NCBI GenBank assembly: GCA_019247795.1
Contig: JAFBAK010000245.1
Span: forward strand, 1-64,000
DNA length: 64,000 bases
Origin: Hyphomicrobiales bacterium
GTDB lineage: Bacteria; Pseudomonadota; Alphaproteobacteria; Rhizobiales; Beijerinckiaceae
Direction of reading: 5' to 3'
Both the position numbers and the translations under genes were made by a program. Shown in pieces: positions 4,140 to 22,711 of this stretch; position 1 is the stretch's first letter, and every line of letters starts with the position of its first letter. The notes under the pieces are model-generated. The model worked only from the letters and a program-made list of their open reading frames with translations, was not told the origin of the DNA and did not search any database.

Positions 4140-4228
4140 GCCCCCGCCCCTCACGGCCCGAATTGCCAATCGAAACGGCTCGGTTTAAGGCAGCGTTCTA
4201 AATCTGAGCACTCAGGAACACTGGCGGC

Positions 4229-5254
4229 ATGTCGAAAAGTCTCATGCAGAAGGATGACCTTATTCTCGTGACGGGAGGAGGAGGCTTCATCGGCGGTCAT
4301 ATGGTCAAAACCCTGCGCGACCAAGGGTTTCACCGTCTCCGGGCAGTCGATCGCAAGCCGTTTGAGGAGTGGTACCAGATCTTCGATGATGTGGAAAACC
4401 TGCAACTCGACCTCGCTTTCCTGGATGGCTGTCAGACCGCGGCCAAGGGCACCGGCTATGTGTTCAATCTTGCCTGCGACATGGGTGGCATGGGTTTCAT
4501 CGAGCTCAACAAGGCCTTGTGCATGCTTTCGGTTCTCACCTCGACCCACATGCTGGTTGCGGCGAGAGACACGGGGGCGAAGCGACTCTTCTACTCGTCT
4601 TCAGCTTGCGTTTATAACGGCAGCAAGCAGACAGACCCCAACAACACCGGGCTTGCCGAGGCCGACGCCTATCCAGCCATGCCCGAAGACGGCTATGGCT
4701 GGGAAAAGCTCTTCTCCGAGCGAATGGCACGACATTTCATGGAGGATTTCGACCTCGAGACCCGCGTTGCGCGCTACCACAACGTCTACGGCCCTTGGGG
4801 CACATATGACGGGGGCCGCGAAAAGGCGCCGGCCGCGATCTGTCGCAAGGTGATCGCTGCGAAACAGTCCGGAAAGCATGAGATCGAAATTTGGGGAGAC
4901 GGCGAGCAGACACGCAGCTTCATGTATATCGACGACTGTGTTCACGGCACGCTTGCGCTCATGGAGAGCGACGTCCGTGAGCCGCTCAATCTCGGCTCGG
5001 ATGAACTCGTGAGCATCAATCAGCTCGTCTCGATCGTGGAGGACATCGCCGGCGTGAAGCTGAAACGCAAGTATAAGCTCGATGCGCCCAAGGGGGTGCG
5101 TGGCCGCAACAGCGACAACACGAAGATCAAGAAGAACCTCGATTGGGCGCCCTCCATCAGGTTGCGGGATGGCTTGGAAAAAACCTATGCCTGGATCGCC
5201 GACGAGATGAGCTCGAACATGGCGGACGCACGCAAGAAGGTGTTCGCCACCTGA
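4229..5254 (+). CDS. NAD-dependent epimerase resembling GDP-mannose 3,5-epimerase
   Basis: NLACDMGGMGFIELNKA, SSACVYN, YGWEKL, RYHNVYGPWGTYDGGREKAPAAICRK, WGDGEQTRSFMYIDD, GVRGRNSDNTKIKKNLDWAP match remembered GME signature segments. Confidence 0.8.
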   Translation: MSKSLMQKDDLILVTGGGGFIGGHMVKTLRDQGFHRLRAVDRKPFEEWYQIFDDVENLQLDLAFLDGCQTAAKGTGYVFNLACDMGGMGFIELNKALCMLSVLTSTHMLVAARDTGAKRLFYSSSACVYNGSKQTDPNNTGLAEADAYPAMPEDGYGWEKLFSERMARHFMEDFDLETRVARYHNVYGPWGTYDGGREKAPAAICRKVIAAKQSGKHEIEIWGDGEQTRSFMYIDDCVHGTLALMESDVREPLNLGSDELVSINQLVSIVEDIAGVKLKRKYKLDAPKGVRGRNSDNTKIKKNLDWAPSIRLRDGLEKTYAWIADEMSSNMADARKKVFAT

Positions 5255-5286
5255 GCAATGCGGTCAGAGCCTGCATTTGGGAATTC

Positions 5287-6435
5287 TCAATCCGCTTTCT
5301 CCATGACGAGATAGACCGGGTCGCCCAACCGCGCGATCCTCTCCGGCTTATTTTGGGCGGGACCCGGCTTCACCGAAATTGTCTCGTCGTCGACAACGAA
5401 ATCACTGAGGCGGAAGCTGGCGCGGATATGCAGGCCGAGCTTCTCAAAGAGGGCTTGCACCATGGACGCCGACGGCACCAGACAAAGCTCCCAATCGGCG
5501 CAGAATGGCCAGCGCGCAGGGTCCGACAATTCGAACACCGGCTCTTCCCGGTTGCAGACACAGCTTTGAAGGAGAGCCCAACGTCTGGTCAGCCGCGCCA
5601 GCCGCTGCGCACCACCAATTGGATCCCGCAAGTGATAGAACAACCCGGAGCAAAACACGAGATCATATTGCTCGGCGGTCGAGAAGTTCTCGAGATCGGC
5701 AACCATGAACCTCGTTGACCCGATCCAACTTTCTTGAAGTTGATCCGCAATGAAACCTGCCTGTTCTATTGCCGCCGTGTCGTGGTCGAAGCCGTCCACA
5801 ATCGCGCCCATTTGCGCAAACAGGAACGAGAAATGACCGGCGCTGCAGGCCACGTCGAGCACTTTAGAGCCGCTGATCGGACCGACATGTTCTTTGATCA
5901 GGTAGGAAAAAATTGAACGTGCCACCGCGTTCGCGCGAGTCCACCCAGGCTCATCTTCGACCGAGGCGCGAACCAGGACTCCATCACCGAGATCCGTCGT
6001 GTAGTACCAGTGGGGAAACTTGGCGCTCCGAGCGTCCTTGACGAGGTTTGGGGCATCCGTCCAGGTGACGTTCGTGATTCGGGCAAGGGCAGAACGATCC
6101 GCCTCGCCTGTGCGGATGCATACTCGGAACCGAGTCTTCGTCGCTACCAGGAAGGTAGCCTCCTGTGTCGCCGGCGAGCGAGCCAGAATTCGCTCCGGAA
6201 CGATGTAGCAGCTGATATCTCGCGATGACACGAGCCCGATGCCCAGCGGTCCCTCTTGCACAGTCGCGCTGACCTTTACCAATGCAAACCGGCCAGCGGC
6301 ACTGATCTCAGCCTCTGAAGATAGGCTGGCGTAGTTCCATCGGCGCGGCGGTGTCCGCACGAAGATTGGGCAAGGGTGCTCGGACCCCTGTTCCGATCCG
6401 TGGTCTGCAAAAGCAACGTTGAGATTACGCCACAC
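5287..6435 (-). CDS. Class I SAM-dependent methyltransferase with N-terminal accessory domain
   Basis: VLDVACSAGHFSFLFAQMGAIVDGFD (motif I) and DLVFCSGLFYHLRDP; about 125 aa N-terminal extension before the methyltransferase fold. Confidence 0.8.
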   Translation of the reverse strand: MWRNLNVAFADHGSEQGSEHPCPIFVRTPPRRWNYASLSSEAEISAAGRFALVKVSATVQEGPLGIGLVSSRDISCYIVPERILARSPATQEATFLVATKTRFRVCIRTGEADRSALARITNVTWTDAPNLVKDARSAKFPHWYYTTDLGDGVLVRASVEDEPGWTRANAVARSIFSYLIKEHVGPISGSKVLDVACSAGHFSFLFAQMGAIVDGFDHDTAAIEQAGFIADQLQESWIGSTRFMVADLENFSTAEQYDLVFCSGLFYHLRDPIGGAQRLARLTRRWALLQSCVCNREEPVFELSDPARWPFCADWELCLVPSASMVQALFEKLGLHIRASFRLSDFVVDDETISVKPGPAQNKPERIARLGDPVYLVMEKAD

Positions 6436-7038
6436 GATATAAATCTCGTTTATTTAACAGGAAACCTCCTGATAGAGCTTAATACTAAATTCAAACCAGA
6501 AGCAGATCTATAATTCAACTTGAAATGTTTTCCGAACCAGCAATTGTTCAGGGTGACACCGCAGAAGCGCGTCGTGGTCGAGGCTCCGGTGCGCGCACCA
6601 ACGACACGGGAAGTGATGTTTTCGGGTGCGAATTGCTGCCTTTTTCCGCCGGGGGGCGCCCGATTCACGAGATGAGCGGGGAGATCGGAACGATGCCGAG
6701 CACGGTGAACTGCTGATGAGGGCCTATTGCTCGCGAGGTCTTGCCGGCCTGGATGAAAAGCGATGCCCTGCGCCTGCGCCCAAATATTGTTGCCCGGACC
6801 GGCAGGCGGATTTCAGCATCGCGGTGTCAGTCCTGCCGGCGAGCTATCCTCTTGGACGGGATGTTTGCAGGCGCAAGCCTCAGTCAAGGTGAGCAGCAGG
6901 TCTGGCGTTCCTGCACGCGCAGGAGATTGACCTTACGGGGCGCAAATGTGGGAGTGGGGGATGGGGCCGAGCTGTCATTATATGGCGCCGCCCGAGAATG
7001 CCATTTTCATCTGTATCTGCCGTCGCTTGCGTGTCGAC

Positions 7039-8145
7039 TTATGACGGCGACATGAAGCGGCAGTTCAACCGCTGCACAGCCACCCCGATGCGATCAGCTC
7101 CCTCCTCCGTAAGGCCGACGCCAAAGGGCAAGTAAACCGAATGCGCGAACCAGAATTCCGATGCCTTGAAATCGCGATCGCGCAGAGCTTCATAGGGCGG
7201 ATGGTGATACATGGGACGATATTGGCGCGCGGCAAGTATGCCCTGGCTCTTCAACTGCGAAACCACGTCGTCCGGGCGCTCGACGAAGATGATGTGCTGC
7301 ATGGGCACGTCTCCATCCGCCGCGCGAAATAGTCGCTCTCCCAAGTGCTTGGCCAGGATGGAATAAGCGCTGCGCTTGCGAGCCCAACGTTCCTCGATTT
7401 GATCAAGCTCGGCGTTGCCGAGGGCCGCGGCGAGATCGCTTAAACGTAAGTTGCTGCCGATGCTCTTGTTGAGATTGGTCCGGCGCCAGTCGACGTCACC
7501 CTGATCGGCAGCCGCAATGGCCGCGTCTCGCTGCGCCTCATCATGGGCGAGAACGGCACCCCCCTGACCGGTGGTCAGGATCTTCGGTACGCTGAAGCTG
7601 ATGGTGCCGATCTGGCCGAAGCTGCCGCCTCGGCGGCCCGGGCGACCGCGACCGAGCGCCCAGGCTGCGTCCTCGATGAGCGGCACGCCTCGATCGGCGC
7701 AGATCGCGGCAACCTCGTCGAGGTCGTCGCCGATGCTTCCGCAGAAATCCACGTAGACGACGGCCCTCGTGTCTTTAGTGATTGCTTCGCCCAAGCGTTT
7801 CGGATCAATGCATCCCGTTGCCGCATCGATTTCCGCAAGACGGGGCCTGAGGCCGATCACCCCGAATGCGTTGATGACGGATATCACACCGTAGGCGGGA
7901 ACAATGACCTCATCGCCGGGTCTCAAGCCGAGCGCCTGCGCAGCGATCGACAGCGCGACGGTGCCGCTGGAAACAGGAACTGCGGCCGCCACGTCACAGA
8001 CCTGCGCCAGCCGCGACGCGAAGCTTTGCGCCGTCGGGCCAGGCCCAACGAAGGAAGTCTCGATTTGGCGGCTGACCGCCTCCGCGCAACTCGGCGGAAG
8101 CCAAGGCTCGGCAAGCGGGATGATGCTGTGCTGCTGCTGGTTCAA
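7039..8145 (-). CDS. DegT/DnrJ/EryC1-family aminotransferase
   Basis: IPLAEPWLPPSCAEAV, DFCGSIGDDLDEVAAIC, EDAAWALG, SFSVPKILTTGQGG (PLP lysine region). Likely TTG start at 8145 in a TTGA overlap with the upstream gene; ORF track begins at 8214. Confidence 0.85.
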   Translation of the reverse strand: MNQQQHSIIPLAEPWLPPSCAEAVSRQIETSFVGPGPTAQSFASRLAQVCDVAAAVPVSSGTVALSIAAQALGLRPGDEVIVPAYGVISVINAFGVIGLRPRLAEIDAATGCIDPKRLGEAITKDTRAVVYVDFCGSIGDDLDEVAAICADRGVPLIEDAAWALGRGRPGRRGGSFGQIGTISFSVPKILTTGQGGAVLAHDEAQRDAAIAAADQGDVDWRRTNLNKSIGSNLRLSDLAAALGNAELDQIEERWARKRSAYSILAKHLGERLFRAADGDVPMQHIIFVERPDDVVSQLKSQGILAARQYRPMYHHPPYEALRDRDFKASEFWFAHSVYLPFGVGLTEEGADRIGVAVQRLNCRFMSPS

Positions 8146-8732
8146 ATCTCGCCTCTTTGCAGCCGTTGCATCGCTTCCGCTTGAACCGCTTTGACACTGT
8201 CTACGTCGCGCCACCCGATGAGCTGCGGTCGGCCGGCACCGGTCACGTAAACGGAACCTGGCTCAAAATCTCCATTGATGATGCATGTGGCGCCGATCGT
8301 GGCGCAGTCGCCAATTGTCGCATTCGGCAAAACCACGCAATGAGCACCGATCACCACGCCTTTGCCGACCGACACATCCCCTGTCACACCGCGCTTGAGA
8401 TCGTCAGGAACGACCGAGTTCGTGAGGAGGGGCGAGGAGTAGTCATCAGATGCCGTATAGATTCCGACATAGGCGGCGGTCGTGCTGAAGTCGCCGAAAG
8501 TGATCCTCCCAGCCGTACCTCCCAGGAGGCAGTACGAGCTGATGTGCACGAAGCAACCGATGTCGACATGGCCTTTGAGGATGACGAAATCATCGATGCG
8601 CGTGTGATCACCGAGTTTGCCTCGAAAGCCGTAAAACCTCGCCAAGCGGCTGACTTGCACCCGCCGGCCCACAAATACGCATCCGAGCGATCGTAGCTCC
8701 TCGGGAGCGTAATATGGCGTCTCGTCCGCCAT
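8142..8732 (-). CDS. Left-handed beta-helix (hexapeptide) sugar O/N-acyltransferase
   Basis: Hexapeptide pattern ...IDDFVILKGHVDIGCFVHISSYCLLGG...VSVGKGVVIGAHCVVLPNATIGDCATIGATCIING. Confidence 0.82.
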   Translation of the reverse strand: MADETPYYAPEELRSLGCVFVGRRVQVSRLARFYGFRGKLGDHTRIDDFVILKGHVDIGCFVHISSYCLLGGTAGRITFGDFSTTAAYVGIYTASDDYSSPLLTNSVVPDDLKRGVTGDVSVGKGVVIGAHCVVLPNATIGDCATIGATCIINGDFEPGSVYVTGAGRPQLIGWRDVDSVKAVQAEAMQRLQRGEI

Positions 8733-11204: not shown

Positions 11205-12629
11205 TCAGGGTTCCGCGTACTCTGGACGGGGCTGCATGGCAAGAATTTCTATCGCACGGATGCCGACCGATGAAGGCTGGGCCGTCTTGCCGTTTCGAAG
11301 CAGCAGCGAATTGCAACCATTGTTACGATATTCGAAGTAATAGTCTCGAGCATCATGGGTCGCGGCCAGCTCGATTTCTTCCGCGAGCACGTTCCGTTGG
11401 GGATCGAACATCGAGAGCATCGGCGTACCGGCGACATGCGAAACAGTGACCTTCACCCAATGCCATTCCTGGTCGAACGAGAGCGTCGGAAGGTTGAGCG
11501 GCGCCATGGCGGCATAATTCCAACTTTGACGTGGGGTGGTGAAGACTGTTCGGCCCCAACGACGCGTCCTCGTGGCGCCACCCGACGCCCAATCAGTTTC
11601 GATTTTCATCGCCTCGGCGCCCATTGATCGAATGACGCTGGCATGAGCTTTTGGCGGAACGCGGGGTGGCACGTTTTCGCGCTCGGTCAAGCGTTGCGAC
11701 GCGCGGTCGAAATCGAGGTGGCGGCTTTTCTTGGCCAGATATTCGATGACGGGGGCGCCAGGCATGTGGCGATGGGCCGAGAGCACATGTTCGCGAAAGA
11801 CAGGCGCGTCGCCGACGAGATCGAAAAGCTGGCCTGCGAAGGTGGCGTGCATGTTAGAGAGAATCTCACGCCTCATGAATTGGAGCAGCTCCTGGTGAGG
11901 GCCGGAGGCGTCAGCCGATCCGGCAGTCACATGTCCGAGCAACCGATCTATGATGATCGTCTTGTCACGCGCGAATTGCGCGTACGCCTCAGGCCGAAAC
12001 GACATGCTCGCGGCATCGCCTCGAGCAGTCATCGTCACCGCCTCCTTCCGCACCAGCCGCTCCTGACCGAAGCGCAAAGCCATCCGGGACATGAGCTCGA
12101 AATCGGGAACGGTCTTGAGCGTCTCGTCGAGATAGAGTTCCTTGCCGAGGAGGCGACGGTTGAATACGCCGGCAGTGGTCGTGCACATGTCGTGGCGCAG
12201 GTAATCGAGGAGATTGAACGGTTTGGGCATGAACGTCCGCGGTTCATTCCAAGGCCCGTTCACGAGCCGCATGCCCCCGAAAATGTAGACGGCGTTGGGA
12301 TGTTCGCGTGACCAACCGACGTATTTCTCGATCGCGCCGTCATCGAGGATTTCGTCGCATGCGGCCGCAACCACCAGGTCACCGGTGCAGCGCTGCAGGG
12401 CCCGATTATAACCGTTGACGAGACTCGCATCCAGCTCTGACACGATATGGATCGGAAAATCCCTCACCGATTCCAAATACGCGACGCTGCCATCAGTCGA
12501 CAACGAATCTTGCACGAAAAGCTCGAATTTTCGATAACTCTGACGACGCAGCCCCTCAATTGCATCGCGCAAGTGAGGGAGCCCGTTTTTTACGGGCAAA
12601 GCAATCGACACAATTGGCTGCTCGACCAC
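11205..12629 (-). CDS. Family 2 glycosyltransferase with C-terminal accessory domain
   Basis: VSIALPVKNGLPHLRDAIEGLRRQSYRKFELFVQDSLSTDGS; AACDEILDDGA. The last ~116 aa lie outside the GT fold. Confidence 0.82.
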   Translation of the reverse strand: MVEQPIVSIALPVKNGLPHLRDAIEGLRRQSYRKFELFVQDSLSTDGSVAYLESVRDFPIHIVSELDASLVNGYNRALQRCTGDLVVAAACDEILDDGAIEKYVGWSREHPNAVYIFGGMRLVNGPWNEPRTFMPKPFNLLDYLRHDMCTTTAGVFNRRLLGKELYLDETLKTVPDFELMSRMALRFGQERLVRKEAVTMTARGDAASMSFRPEAYAQFARDKTIIIDRLLGHVTAGSADASGPHQELLQFMRREILSNMHATFAGQLFDLVGDAPVFREHVLSAHRHMPGAPVIEYLAKKSRHLDFDRASQRLTERENVPPRVPPKAHASVIRSMGAEAMKIETDWASGGATRTRRWGRTVFTTPRQSWNYAAMAPLNLPTLSFDQEWHWVKVTVSHVAGTPMLSMFDPQRNVLAEEIELAATHDARDYYFEYRNNGCNSLLLRNGKTAQPSSVGIRAIEILAMQPRPEYAEP

Positions 12630-15520: not shown

Positions 15521-17566
15521 TCAAAGCGTCTTCGGAACGTTCTTCTCGAGTTCGGCAATCCAGGTATCGGCACGCGAGTCGCTCGGCGCACGCCAGTCGC
15601 CGCGCGGTGAAAGTGAGCCCCCCGAACCCACTTTCGGTCCATTCGGCATCGCGGATCGCTTGAATTGACTGATCTCGAAAAAACGGAAGAGAAACAGGCG
15701 CAACCATTTGCGGATGGTCGCAAGATCATAGGCGCGCCTGCCCTCTTCCTTGAGCCCGACGGGCCAGGCGCCCGCTTTCGCATCGCGCCAGGCGTGCCAG
15801 GAGAGATAGGCGACCTTGCTCGGCCGCAAGCCGTATCGAGTGATGTAATAGAGATTGAAGTCCTGGAGCGCGTAGGGGCCGATGAAATCCTCGGTGCGCT
15901 GCCCGGGCTTTTCCCCCTCGCTCGGCACGAGCTCGGGGGAAATTTCGGTGGCGAGTACGGCGCGCAACGTCGCCGAAACGTCGGGGCCGAATTCGTTGCG
16001 GTCCGCGACCCAGCGGATCAAATGCTGGATCAACGTCTTGGGCACCGATCCATTGACGTTGTAATGCGACATTTGATCGCCCACGCCGTATGTGCACCAG
16101 CCGAGCGCGAGTTCCGACAGATCGCCCGTCCCCATGACGATCGCGTTGTGAAAATTGGCGAGGCGAAAGAGCAAGGCTGTCCGTGCGCCAGCCTGAACAT
16201 TCTCGAACGTCACGTCGTAGACCGGCTCGCCTCTCGCATTCGGATGACCGATCTCGATCAGCGTTTGGCGCACCACCGGCGTGATGTCGATCTCTTCCGC
16301 GCTCACCGCGAAAGCCCGCATCAGTGCATGCGCGCTCGACTTGGTGAGTTTTGAAGTGGCAAGGCCAGGCAAGGTGTAGCAAAGGATGTCCTTGCGGGCA
16401 TAACCGAGCCGGTCGAAGGCGCGCGCCGCGACGATGAGGGCATGCGTGGAATCGAGGCCGCCCGAAATACCGAGCACCACTTTCTTGACACCGGCAGCAG
16501 CCAACCGCGTCATCAAGCCGTGCACCTGGATGTTGAATGCTTCGTAGCAATTCTCATCGAGGAGCGTAGGATCCGACGGCAGGAATGGATATCGATCCAC
16601 GGCGCGACGCAAGGGCACCTTCTCTTCGAGCGAGGGGCCAAGCGTGAAAGCGACACTGCGGAACGCATTTTGGCTGAGATGATGATCGGCGCAATCGCCG
16701 AAAGAACCGACTCGCAGGCGCTCCTGGCGCAGACGCTCGAGATCGATATCGGCCGTGATCATCTGCGGGTGGTCTGCGAAGCGCTGCCCTTCGGCCAATA
16801 GCTCGCCATTTTCGAAAACCGCCACATGGCCATCCCAGGCGAGGTCGGTCGTCGATTCTCCCGGGCCTGCAGCGGAATAAAGATAAGCCGCGATGCATCG
16901 CATCGACTGGGAGCGGCAAAGATCGCGTCGGGCTTGTGCCTTGCCGACTACGATGTTGGAGGCCGAAAGGTTGGCCAGGATCGTGGCGCCCGCCATGGCT
17001 CCCGAGGAAGAAGGCGGAGCCGGCGTCCAGACGTCCTCGCAGATCTCCACGTGCACGACGAAGTCCTTGAGATCGGATGCGCGGAAGAGCAGATCCGTGC
17101 CGAAGAGGGTGTCCTGGTCGGCGAAGACCGCGGTCCGCTGCCGGTGCGACACCCCCGACGCAAAATAGCGCTTCTCGTAGAATTCGCGATAATTGGGTAG
17201 ATACGCCTTCGGGACGATGCCGAGCAGCGAGCCCCGATGCATCACGAAGGCGCAGTTGAAGAGGCGCCCGTCGAGCGCGAAGGGAGCGCCGACAATCAGA
17301 ATCGGCCGAAGCTCGCGCGAAGCCTCGAGAATGCGCGCAAGCTGCGCGTTCACCGAACCCAAAAGGGCATCTTGGAAGAACAAATCGTCATTCGTGTAAG
17401 CCGAGATGCCGAGCTCGGGAAAAAGCGCGAGCGCGGCATGCTCATCGTGCGCCCGTCTTGCCAAGTGCAACGTCTCGTTCGCGTTCGATTCTGGTTCTGC
17501 GACCCTGACGCGAGGGACGCACACCGCAACCCGGACAAATCCGTGATTGTAGATGTTATCGAACAT
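15521..17566 (-). CDS. nadE: Glutamine-dependent NAD+ synthetase
   Basis: N-terminal nitrilase-like amidase domain ([40 protein letters not shown]) and C-terminal synthetase P-loop ([15 protein letters not shown]). Confidence 0.93.
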
Positions 17567-17652: not shown

Positions 17653-18339
17653 TCAATCCGTCATCCATGGCGGACGGCGAAACCCGAGACCATGGCAAAT
17701 GGTCCGCACGCGTGGATCGTAACCGGCGAGATAAAGAAGCCCGACATTGGCCGCGATCGCAATCTTCCCGTCGGCCGCCATGGCGCGGATGAGTGAGCTC
17801 GAGACCAGCACGGCTTCCACTCCGACCTCAGTCGAGCGCGGCACGCCTTCGACAAGGGCGAAGAAGCCGAAAAGCTTGTTGTTCAGTCGCCCCACATCGG
17901 CATAGGCCTCTTGCAGCAAGACAAGTTCCTTGACCGACAATCCCGTCTCTTCCTCAACTTCCCGCCGGCCCGCAACGTCTGGAGTTTCGTCGCCATCGCG
18001 CAGACCGCCCGGAAATTCGATGGTCCAGCGGTCGATGATGGGCCGGTATTGCCGCACGAGCACGAGATCGCCGCTGGCGTGCAGGCACATCACATTGACG
18101 TAATCGGGTTGCGCAAGCCCATGATAGATCTCTGCCTCGGAGCTACCGGGCATCATGGCCTCGACGGTCTCGAGCCGCACCCAGGGAGAGATGGCACTCA
18201 CACTGCGACTTAGCACCCGGGCCGACCCGTCTTGTTGATGAGGGGACACTACGCCTCGCAAATTCGGGAAATCCAAGGAACGACAGCGTCGGTTCTTAGC
18301 GGCACCCGGAAGGGGTCGCAACCGAATGTCCCTGTTCAA
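17653..18339 (-). CDS. NUDIX hydrolase (ADP-ribose pyrophosphatase-like)
   Basis: Complete Nudix box GGLRDGDETPDVAGRREVEEETGL. True start probably internal to the ORF. Confidence 0.85.
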   Translation of the reverse strand: MNRDIRLRPLPGAAKNRRCRSLDFPNLRGVVSPHQQDGSARVLSRSVSAISPWVRLETVEAMMPGSSEAEIYHGLAQPDYVNVMCLHASGDLVLVRQYRPIIDRWTIEFPGGLRDGDETPDVAGRREVEEETGLSVKELVLLQEAYADVGRLNNKLFGFFALVEGVPRSTEVGVEAVLVSSSLIRAMAADGKIAIAANVGLLYLAGYDPRVRTICHGLGFRRPPWMTD

Positions 18340-18378: not shown

Positions 18379-20820
18379 TCACTCTCCAATACGCCGAACA
18401 GTCAGGCTTTTGAAGCCGAAGGGCAATTGACCATGGGCAAGAAGCCGAAACTCGAGAGCGAAATCCGGATTTTCCAAATGTGATGATGTCACTTCAAAAG
18501 GAACCGTCACCCGTCGACTCGGTCGCCAACTGCCGACAAACACCTTCTTCAGGCCGATCTCGGTGTCCCGGTATACGGCTTGGAACGTGCAAAAGGGGTA
18601 GCGTCCTGCGTGAGGCCCGACCGGCAATCCGCGAATGCGGCGTCGCAGAAAGCCTAATGCCGGGCGCAAGGCCCTCGCGTAGCCGCGGATCAAGGCTTTT
18701 GCCTTCCAATAAACCGGTTCGGCCGCAAGCTTGAATACAGCTTCGTAGCGGCCCGCGGGCAGCCGCCAATAGGGGCCGTAGAAGACGAGCCCGGGCTTCG
18801 CCGAACCATGGAAGATGTGGCCGTTTTCTCGTCTCGCCTGCGGGGCTGTCGATAGAAGCGGCAACCATTCTTTCACCGAGAGCGCCCGACTTTCTGGCGA
18901 GGATGCTGGTTTTACGTCCGCGATGCGCTCGCAACTGAGTGTGGAGAGAGTGAGTTCAACCGGCGCGACAGTGCGAAGCCGCGTCTCGATTGAGAAGCCC
19001 GGAGTGAGCGCATGATCCTGCGTTATGTCGACGTCGAGCGCGACCTGGCCTGCAACAATGTCCGAGCGCATGATCAACCGATGCCCCAGATATTCACGAC
19101 TCGACGCGATTTCGAGCACCGCGACCGTCTGGTCGCGATTGTGAATGGAGATGTCATTCCCCGACAATCCTAGCTTGAAACGGTAGGTGCCGGCATGTAG
19201 GTGACGGTGAGGGCCCTGAATGACAGGGCCCAACACTTCCTTGCGCGATCTGATCAACCGCCCATCCTGGATACCGGCGTTCCCCACCTGCAATCTCGAG
19301 GTCCAATCCACCTGCCCCTTCATGGGCGGCAAGACGAAGCCATTACGCATACGAGCCGAATAGGGCGTGTGGGCCGCGCCGATATGCGACATGATCGCCG
19401 ATTCGAAGACGTTGTTGATGGCGTTGACCGCGATGACTCGACGAAGCGGCCGGCCATCGGTCATCCGTTTGTGCTCGGACGCCACGATGGCCAGCAATGC
19501 TCGATTCATGGCGTGAGCGGCCGGCCTCGGGACACCCGCGAAGCTATTGTCGTCTTGCTCGATGCGCCCAAAATCGAAAATGAAAGCGTCAGCTTTCTCG
19601 AGCATCGTGTCGAAGGTGGTCTCGACCGCTCCGGATACGGTCGCCAGGCCCGCGCCTTCGATCAGGCTTTGGTCGACCAGAATGTCGCCCGTGAAGCCAA
19701 GCTCCTTCCACCATCCCGCAAAATGCGTCATCAGATCCCGTTTGGCACCAAACCAGGCGACGCTCGTCTTCCGCTCGCAACAGACGAACATGTCGGCGAG
19801 ATAAGGAAGGATATGGCGCGGGTCATAGTCGGTTTTGTTGTAGTTCTCGCCCACATAGGCGACCGTGGGAGGCACGTGCTGCCTCTCGCCAATCTGCCTT
19901 TTGAGTGCCTTCACATAAGCCGACGCGCTTTGTCCCGTGAGGCGAATTTCCTCGATCTCGTCATTGGCGCAACCCCAGCTATCCGCCTGCTCGGGAATCC
20001 AAGGCTTCGGAACATTCTCGATGAAACGTCTCCAGTCATTCTCCGTCCGAGAATGACTATGCATCAGGGTCACCTGCCGCGCGTGATCACAATGATACCC
20101 GTACACTTCCTTCCCCAAATCGCCGACCTTCCCCCGCAGCATCGTCAGGCGCTTGGCGATGTTGGAATCAACGTGCCAACCAAGCAGCATCTCCTCGTCG
20201 AAACCCTGGATCTCGAATAGATCGGAGCGCTCCATCAATTGAAAATCGCCAGGGCCGTCATAAAGAATGAGGGGTGATCCGAAGACGATTTCATCGACGT
20301 GCAGCGTCGAGCCCCATTCGCGGACCGTCTCGATCGCTTCACGCGCCTTGTTGCGGTCGAGGCTTTCCCACAAAGTCTCCGGAATCTCGATGCGCGGCGC
20401 GTGGTAGAATCCCGCCGGCAAGTCACGCGTGAACTCGTTGAGCGACTGCGCTCGTTGCGGCACGAAAATCATGTCGGTGTTGGTGGACAAAATCCAGCGA
20501 TTGGCCGGGTTCGAGCGACGAACCGCCACGTTACGGGCGATCGGCTCGAGCGCGACGAGCCTCGTCTTGTCGCTAAACCGTCGATGGATATGCGGCCTCA
20601 CTCTGAAGATGCGCAGTTTCTTGCGCGCCTTGTCACTCAGCGTATCCTGGATGGCTTCCGGAAAGGTGGGAAAATCATCGGGAGTGTTGTAGTCGACGAA
20701 GAGGATTTCGTCGCCATCTTCGCCAAGTACTTCGGCCATGCAATTGAAGCTGAGCGCAGCTCGCTTATGCAAATTGTAGCCATAACTGTCGTTGCGTCCG
20801 TAGAGAACAATAGAAATCAT
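18379..20820 (-). CDS. Large glycosyltransferase-like protein (813 aa) with a C-terminal repeated module of unknown function
   Basis: N-terminus MISIVLYGRNDSYGYNLHKRAALSFNCMAEVL...DEILFVDYNTPDD...RWILSTNTDMIFVP is GT-A-like; the remaining ~500 aa are not recognised. Confidence 0.7.
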   Translation of the reverse strand: MISIVLYGRNDSYGYNLHKRAALSFNCMAEVLGEDGDEILFVDYNTPDDFPTFPEAIQDTLSDKARKKLRIFRVRPHIHRRFSDKTRLVALEPIARNVAVRRSNPANRWILSTNTDMIFVPQRAQSLNEFTRDLPAGFYHAPRIEIPETLWESLDRNKAREAIETVREWGSTLHVDEIVFGSPLILYDGPGDFQLMERSDLFEIQGFDEEMLLGWHVDSNIAKRLTMLRGKVGDLGKEVYGYHCDHARQVTLMHSHSRTENDWRRFIENVPKPWIPEQADSWGCANDEIEEIRLTGQSASAYVKALKRQIGERQHVPPTVAYVGENYNKTDYDPRHILPYLADMFVCCERKTSVAWFGAKRDLMTHFAGWWKELGFTGDILVDQSLIEGAGLATVSGAVETTFDTMLEKADAFIFDFGRIEQDDNSFAGVPRPAAHAMNRALLAIVASEHKRMTDGRPLRRVIAVNAINNVFESAIMSHIGAAHTPYSARMRNGFVLPPMKGQVDWTSRLQVGNAGIQDGRLIRSRKEVLGPVIQGPHRHLHAGTYRFKLGLSGNDISIHNRDQTVAVLEIASSREYLGHRLIMRSDIVAGQVALDVDITQDHALTPGFSIETRLRTVAPVELTLSTLSCERIADVKPASSPESRALSVKEWLPLLSTAPQARRENGHIFHGSAKPGLVFYGPYWRLPAGRYEAVFKLAAEPVYWKAKALIRGYARALRPALGFLRRRIRGLPVGPHAGRYPFCTFQAVYRDTEIGLKKVFVGSWRPSRRVTVPFEVTSSHLENPDFALEFRLLAHGQLPFGFKSLTVRRIGE

Positions 20821-21111
20821 TGACGACGGTCGCTAGCTTGTTTGGAGGTTACTGTCGTAATCCAGGGCAGGTCGATAACAGGCCCCGCGCTAATACAGCT
20901 TTGCAACAGATATTCTAAGGTGCTGCTCCGCAACGAGATCTCATCGCGCCGAACCACCAATGAGCTCAGCAATCGCAGGTTGGTAGCCAAAATCCGTTTT
21001 CATCGCACTGGCGGCACAGGCCAGGTTCATGCCGTATAAAGGAAACGCTGCGGCTTGCAACCTTCGCTAGCCGCCTCGCCATGCGCGCTGAACCGCGACG
21101 AGACGTTCTCG

Positions 21112-21858
21112 CTATCCGGCATATGCATCAAGGTAAGCCGGATGAACTTCCTCGAATGAGCCTATCTTTCGAACCTCGCCATGGTCGAGCCAGATAACCT
21201 TGTTGCACAGGCTCTGCATGATCTCTGCGCTATGCGATGCAAGGATCAGGATTTTCGTACGCTCGAGCAGGCTGGTGAGACGCGCCTTCGCCCTCTCCAT
21301 GAAGCGAGCGTCACCGCCTGAGATCATCTCGTCCATGATGATGATATCGGGTTCTATCGAGGTCGAGATCGCGAAGGCGAGTCGCAGGAACATGCCACTC
21401 GAATAGGTTCGGACTGGTAGCCTGAGAAACTCCCCGAGTTCCGAGAATTCCTGGATGGAGGGCGAGAGCCGTCGTGCCTCCGCGAACGACAAACCCATGA
21501 AAACGCAACGAAAAATAATGTTCTCGAGACCGGTTGCCTCAGGATCCATCCCGAGAGTGATATCGGTGAAGGAGGAGAGCCGCCCCTCGATGGACATCGT
21601 GCCGTAGGTCGGTTCATAGACGCCCGCAAGGACGCGCAGAAGCGTCGTCTTGCCGGCTCCATTGTGACCGATAACCCCGACGCGATCGCCATCCTCGAAG
21701 GACAGATTCACTCCTTGCAAGGCCTGCACGAAGATCGCTTGCTTGTGCTGGGCAAGCTTGCCGCCAAGCTTACCGAATACTTGCAGCTGAAGAGAGCGGG
21801 AGTGGGCATTGTGGATTGGAAACTCGACGCCGACGTCGGAAAGCTTGATGTGAGCCAA
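21112..21858 (-). CDS. ABC transporter ATP-binding protein, polysaccharide export (Wzt/KpsT-like, short form)
   Basis: Walker A IGHNGAGKTTLL; signature YSSGMFLRLAFAIS; Walker B IIIMDEMI. Likely TTG start at 21858, since the ORF to 21933 overlaps the permease end. Confidence 0.85.
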   Translation of the reverse strand: MAHIKLSDVGVEFPIHNAHSRSLQLQVFGKLGGKLAQHKQAIFVQALQGVNLSFEDGDRVGVIGHNGAGKTTLLRVLAGVYEPTYGTMSIEGRLSSFTDITLGMDPEATGLENIIFRCVFMGLSFAEARRLSPSIQEFSELGEFLRLPVRTYSSGMFLRLAFAISTSIEPDIIIMDEMISGGDARFMERAKARLTSLLERTKILILASHSAEIMQSLCNKVIWLDHGEVRKIGSFEEVHPAYLDAYAG

Positions 21859-21868
21859 GTGCGATGCC

Positions 21869-22711
21869 TCACAACCAATAGACGACGCGGCGGCGATACC
21901 GGCCGAAGAACGGCAGCGTGACGAGAAGGCCACCGAACGCCAAGAGGCAAGATGCCAGCCAAAACTTCAGCGGAACGGGACGGCCGAGCAGAGGATCGCG
22001 GACGATCGAAATGAGCACGGCAAAAGGATTCCAATCGACGATGACGCGGCTCTCGGGCGGCAGGAGTTCCGGTTTCCATAAGATCGGAGTCAAGAAAAAC
22101 ACGATTTGAATGACACTGGAGACGATCTGCACGATGTCGCGGAAGCGGGCGCACAAAATAGCGACGACGAAGGCCATCCAGATGCAGGTGATGATAAGAA
22201 GAACCGCTCCTAATATACTGAGAAGAGCGTATGCGGTGAACTGAACGCCGAGGGCAATGCAGATAAGCAACGGAAAAACCATGTTCAATACGAATATGAA
22301 TGTATTTCGATAAATTACCGCGTAAACTATTGCGGATGTTGATGTATATTGATTAAGAAAGTAATTGCTGCTTGTCTGTAGAGCAGTGGTCGACTCATTG
22401 ATAATGCTGGAAATGAGTTGCCAAGCCATCATGCCGACTGCGACATAAGGCAGGATCTCTCGCGGGGGCTGATGCCACAACTGCGACCAAACGACCCCAA
22501 TCGCCGAGATGTAGATGGCGCTCGACAGCATGATCCATATCTGCCCCAGCTTCGAGCGCGCGAAGCGGCGACGCATGTCCGCAGTCGCGAGCAGATGGCA
22601 TAGGCGCCATTGGCGTGCGCCATCGATCAGGTCTTGCCAGCCGAGCACGCCGTATCCGATTGCCGTGCGTGTTTGACCGACCTCTCTGAACGATGTCGTC
22701 GCGGAGCTCAT
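21869..22711 (-). CDS. ABC-2 type transporter permease, polysaccharide export (Wzm/KpsM-like)
   Basis: Adjacent to the ATPase; RRFARSKLGQIWIMLSSAIYISAIGVVWSQLW and multiple TM segments; SSVIQIVFFLTPILWKPELLP. Confidence 0.85.
   Translation of the reverse strand: MSSATTSFREVGQTRTAIGYGVLGWQDLIDGARQWRLCHLLATADMRRRFARSKLGQIWIMLSSAIYISAIGVVWSQLWHQPPREILPYVAVGMMAWQLISSIINESTTALQTSSNYFLNQYTSTSAIVYAVIYRNTFIFVLNMVFPLLICIALGVQFTAYALLSILGAVLLIITCIWMAFVVAILCARFRDIVQIVSSVIQIVFFLTPILWKPELLPPESRVIVDWNPFAVLISIVRDPLLGRPVPLKFWLASCLLAFGGLLVTLPFFGRYRRRVVYWL

Follow-up and report, generated by a model that had tools for sequence, protein, structure and literature searches.

Few cytosolic enzymes of polysaccharide assembly are known to carry a CBM-like domain: TarS of Staphylococcus aureus and, as a prediction, ORF6 of the Klebsiella pneumoniae O7 cluster. 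TarS, a GT2 wall teichoic acid glycosyltransferase (PDB 5tz8), consists of a GT-A/GT2 domain, a helical region and a C-terminal CBM-like beta-sandwich part, and its C-terminal CBM trimerization domain forms a trimer and raises acceptor affinity and processivity (PMC5156392). ORF6 is a methyltransferase-kinase chain terminator whose predicted CBM is placed after the methyltransferase and kinase domains and before a coiled coil; it belongs to an ABC-transporter-dependent polysaccharide cluster, and according to its authors no CBM had been identified in any other terminator enzyme (PMC11231755). Chain terminators of the WbdD type are methyltransferases of ABC-exporter clusters that carry a coiled-coil ruler and (in O9a and O7) a kinase domain, and in these systems the CBM of Wzt reads the cap. 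In ABC exporters of the O8/O9a type the CBM is the C-terminal part of the ATPase, Wzt.

The locus described here lies in a stretch of 64,000 nt (the window) from a Hyphomicrobiales bacterium of the Beijerinckiaceae (assembly GCA_019247795.1, contig JAFBAK010000245.1, positions 1 to 64,000 of the forward strand). It is a surface polysaccharide cluster with genes for sugar-nucleotide epimerases, a DegT aminotransferase, a hexapeptide transferase, UDP-sugar dehydrogenases, an acyltransferase, several glycosyltransferases and an ABC exporter. Two of its enzymes, a methyltransferase and a GT2 glycosyltransferase, each carry an extra module of about 105 residues outside the catalytic domain (Table 1). 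The GT2 resembles TarS in its order of parts, but it has a single module of unrelated sequence where TarS has two tandem CBM folds that form the trimer. The methyltransferase shares with ORF6 the combination of a methyltransferase with a CBM-like fold in an ABC-transporter-dependent cluster, although its module is N-terminal and a Pfam search finds no kinase domain in it. The Wzt-like protein of the window (273 aa) matches ABC_tran only, with no C-terminal CBM family found; exporters of the O8/O9a type carry their CBM on the ATPase. Glycan-assembly enzymes with a CBM-like accessory module are of a kind already known; what would be new is the occurrence of one such module on a pair of enzymes from one cluster that catalyze different reactions.

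Two enzymes with terminal modules

Table 1. Positions in the window of the two enzymes, their parts and associated features
Feature	Positions	Strand	Description and basis
Class I SAM-dependent methyltransferase	5287..6435	-	382 aa, GTG start, extra module at N-terminus; Pfam Methyltransf_31 (9.5e-11), Methyltransf_25
Methyltransferase N-terminal module, residues 21-129	6049..6375	-	Predicted 8-strand CBM-like beta-sandwich (AlphaFold); Foldseek
Methyltransferase catalytic core, residues about 187-296	5548..5877	-	Pfam
GT2 glycosyltransferase	11205..12629	-	474 aa, extra module at C-terminus; Pfam Glycos_transf_2 (1.2e-13)
GT2 catalytic domain, residues 8-138	12216..12608	-	Pfam
GT2 C-terminal module, residues 356-474	11208..11564	-	Predicted strands 360-465; AlphaFold, Foldseek
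ABC exporter pair	21112..22711	-	Wzt-like (273 aa, ABC_tran only); Wzm-like ABC2_membrane
Methyltransferase gene plus about 600 bp of non-coding DNA	5255..7040		The syntenic cluster of G634 has about 178 bp instead

A resemblance between the N-terminal part of the methyltransferase and the C-terminal part of the GT2 had been proposed from the sequence alone. Both genes, each on the minus strand, and the quoted residues agree with our translations; residues 23-124 of the methyltransferase do correspond to positions 6369-6064, although the string quoted for them begins at residue 26. Third-position GC in the modules (0.67 in the methyltransferase, 0.63 in the GT2) resembles that of the catalytic parts (0.68 and 0.70), and both modules therefore look genuinely coding. 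Pfam has no family above threshold for the first 180 residues of the methyltransferase, and none for the C-terminal region of the GT2; NCBIfam (searched with Pfam at E <= 1) adds nothing for either module, and the methyltransferase scores 54.5 bits against TIGR04290, below that family's cut-off of 300. Searched alone against Pfam at E <= 10, the modules match no CBM and only DUF1905 (E 0.068), which we judged a chance match. No named CBM family is matched by sequence in Pfam or NCBIfam at E <= 1, or in a profile search of the PDB.

A search of 100 related genomes yielded two full-length orthologs of the GT2, in genomes G634 (77% identical) and G635 (30% identical), both of the same genus as the window. 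There are no further copies of the module elsewhere in the window or in the neighboring clusters. Single-sequence and profile searches of whole genomes of the class (289), the order (348 and 249) and the phylum (329), samples that overlap, returned only the window's own copies as usable matches. Short matches in G227, G304, G447 (a membrane protein), G720, G743, G826, G881 and G917 were rejected, since they lie in unrelated proteins or in reading frames interrupted by stops. Plasmids, searched by tblastn with each of the modules and with consensus sequences of the HMMs, gave nothing usable (a match on an Azospirillum plasmid is antisense and false), and viral contigs gave no match. Genome contigs searched with the methyltransferase likewise gave none; those searched with the GT2 alignment gave only G634 and G635, both Hyphomicrobiales metagenome-assembled genomes (MAGs), and none of the GT2 matches from the class with a long reading frame, read by eye, contains the module. 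No copy thus came to light beyond the genus in these samples. The negative results leave room for distant relatives, because at E <= 0.05 the three-sequence profile of the GT module (window, G634 and G635) misses even the window's own methyltransferase module.

Sequence resemblance between the modules

A direct BLASTP comparison of the two proteins aligns only 12 residues around TPxxxWNYA (6/12 identical, E 0.12). The profile-profile comparison suggested as a check in the sequence-only reading is more informative: hhalign aligns the three-sequence GT profile with the methyltransferase module over 71 columns at P = E = 6.5e-4, and does so collinearly, in keeping with the landmarks that had been lined up by eye. 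The score of 25.5 is reached by none of 400 shuffles (the best scoring 19.9) and by one of 1,200 other protein segments, a segment of a membrane protein that had been fetched beforehand by its match to the same profile. The pair was picked by eye among many proteins, for which the P value should be discounted, by our estimate, by a factor of perhaps tens. Pairwise global scores with the methyltransferase module are equaled by shuffles in 7 of 2,000 cases for the window's GT2, in 0 of 2,000 for G634 and in 4 of 2,000 for G635; the G634 and G635 modules were never available to the sequence-only reading. A local alignment of the methyltransferase module with that of G635 is not significant (363 of 2,000 shuffles), and HMMER with the three-sequence profile reports the methyltransferase only at E 0.94.

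Seven columns (W, Y, V, G, E, R and I) are invariant across the four modules. The invariant Trp and Tyr, which are W33/Y35 in the methyltransferase and W370/Y372 in the GT2, lie in the second predicted strand of the module. The landmarks are collinear and the order of the predicted strands is equal between the modules, with the sequence signal residing mainly in the TPxxxWNYA strand. The claimed likeness is thus confirmed as exceeding chance at the level of sequence, and common descent across the whole module is probable.

Predicted fold and putative role

The AlphaFold modeling that had also been suggested predicts an eight-strand beta-sandwich for both modules, with the strands in the same order. 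The full GT2 was modeled from an alignment of the GT2 and its two orthologs, without methyltransferase rows; pLDDT is 52 overall, and the all-beta module reaches about 70 to 78 in its core (residues 391-430) and less at its ends (strands 360-363, 373-377, 389-400, 403-409, 414-420, 428-434, 441-446 and 454-465). The methyltransferase module was modeled by itself (pLDDT 77.9, pTM 0.71; strands 4-8, 13-16, 30-41, 44-50, 62-64, 67-78, 83-88 and 96-107) from a four-row alignment that includes the GT rows, so that the agreement between the two folds is a matter of consistency rather than independent proof. Foldseek against the PDB places CBM4-2, CBM29, CBM6, CBM36 and a porphyran-binding CBM among the best single-domain matches of the GT2 model, and TarS (5tz8) third among all its matches; whole-protein TM-scores are low (0.14 to 0.19 by query), as expected when the alignment is largely limited to one module of a model that is otherwise of poor quality. 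The top match of the methyltransferase module is a family 4 CBM (1gu3, E 5.1e-4, TM 0.60 by query), followed by SEC14-like GOLD domains (TM 0.62 to 0.66), a porphyran CBM, CBM16 and CBM36. Family 4 (1gu3, 1k42) gives the best match to this module among solved folds, although identity between the family and our modules is 10-15%, with no sequence-level match to any PDB chain or Pfam CBM. Across both modules the matches include many of CBM4, CBM6, CBM16, CBM29, CBM36 and other sugar-binding beta-sandwiches; viral coat proteins occur among them too, and jelly rolls are common folds, some of which bind no sugar.

Both predicted models have the beta-sandwich jelly-roll form of carbohydrate-binding modules, and on these models the module is an unclassified CBM-like jelly roll. 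The sequence-only reading had spoken of a portable glycan-binding or scaffold domain. The profile comparison and the matching predicted folds support its shared, portable and noncatalytic character; the suggested functions fit the CBM-rich fold search and the position of the module, which is C-terminal in the GT2 and N-terminal in the methyltransferase. A match of both segments to an already described domain, which was to count against the proposal, is found at the level of fold only, as no sequence family matches. Judging from the models and from the described systems, the module most likely serves as an acceptor-glycan-binding (or oligomerizing) accessory part rather than a catalytic one.

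Our preferred explanation, which we hold with moderate confidence, is that the two modules are copies of one fast-diverging CBM-like jelly roll in an ABC-exporter-dependent polysaccharide cluster and that they keep their enzymes on the nascent glycan. One module family would have been fused to the N-terminus of the methyltransferase and to the C-terminus of the GT2. By analogy with TarS and Klebsiella O7, it would hold each enzyme on the growing acceptor, raising local concentration or processivity, possibly as an oligomer like that of the tandem CBMs of TarS. In this way sugar transfer by the GT2 and methylation by the methyltransferase would be directed to the right chain. The module need not connect the two enzymes, because in G634 the GT2 has its module while this methyltransferase is missing. 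A stronger version, which we regard as improbable, starts from the exporter ATPase lacking a CBM: the same module on an elongating transferase and on a capping methyltransferase would read one feature of the chain and so coordinate extension with capping.

Oligomerization or protein docking could instead be the whole function, with a GOLD-like jelly roll assembling the polysaccharide enzymes and binding no glycan; we consider this a possible reading, though a doubtful one. The GOLD domains among the Foldseek matches are consistent with it, as are the TarS CBMs, which form the trimer interface and whose truncation barely alters kcat/Km (PMC5156392), and the noncatalytic region of WbdD, which recruits its polymerase (PMC3482155). 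The single-domain matches of the GT module are, however, mostly CBMs, and its presence in G634 without this methyltransferase argues that it is not there only to dock that enzyme.

The preferred explanation also takes the modules to be copies of one another. CBM-like beta-sandwich folds are common on glycan enzymes, and two unrelated ones might have been acquired separately, the WNYA match being a coincidence on a common fold. The weakness of the similarity past the first strand speaks for such an origin: with the N-terminal WNYA strand removed from both modules, what is left does not align significantly (102 of 600 shuffles score as well). We nevertheless think separate acquisition unlikely, given landmarks that are collinear along the whole module, a global score that stands out even with the previously unseen G635 module, and a profile matched as well by no shuffle and by no unselected segment. 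That there is no domain, only a chance likeness of unrelated linker or degenerate segments, accords with the brief BLASTP match but is already disfavored and highly improbable, since both modules are coding by codon composition and are predicted to fold, and that of the GT2 is 74% conserved in the 77% identical ortholog and retained in the 30% identical one.

A module of this fold that no sequence classification covers, present on both enzymes, would offer a compact system in which to test how such enzymes locate their acceptor chain; it would also suggest that unannotated ends of glycan enzymes may hide more such modules.

Variability of the surrounding cluster

The segment around the methyltransferase gene was delimited by blastn of positions 4200-8300 against G634:C45 together with gene order. 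In G634, which lacks this segment, the epimerase is followed directly by the aminotransferase and the order of genes is otherwise as in the window. In G635 the module-bearing GT2 is absent between the epimerase and the acyltransferase, and its 30% identical counterpart is encoded at another place in the cluster, on the opposite strand. Both module-bearing genes therefore fall in a variable part of the cluster, the part that, we infer, usually sets the identity of the glycan. The stretch of about 600 bp without a gene beside the methyltransferase (6436-7038), also absent from G634, may be left over from the event by which the methyltransferase gene was gained. The GT2 of G635 is accompanied by a formyltransferase-like and a methyltransferase-like gene (L044:7894-10626), and third-position GC is lower there (0.51 to 0.61); this block of G635 was possibly acquired recently.

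G634 and G635 have a different methyltransferase between an 813-aa protein and the ATPase gene (20821-21111 in the window; L042:15645-16472). It is found neither at 20821-21111 nor elsewhere in the window's genome (an assembly 98% complete, in 431 contigs). The two methyltransferases may possibly have been exchanged, the module-bearing one in the window against the other in G634 and G635. The 813-aa protein itself (18379-20820, minus strand) has orthologs in both relatives and no hit in Pfam or NCBIfam at E <= 1; two stretches of the form GP(Y/H)xxLxAGxYxxxFxL at its end resemble copies of a second, likewise unnamed module repeated within the protein.

Some genes of the region are of other kinds. 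By reading, we take 15521-17566 (minus strand) to be a glutamine-dependent NAD synthase gene and 17653-18339 a NUDIX gene, both inside the polysaccharide cluster, and both are kept in the cluster in the two relatives. Downstream, at about 34943-57926, are genes that we read, presumptively, as those of tetrahydromethanopterin-linked C1 metabolism and PQQ synthesis, which suggests a methylotroph.
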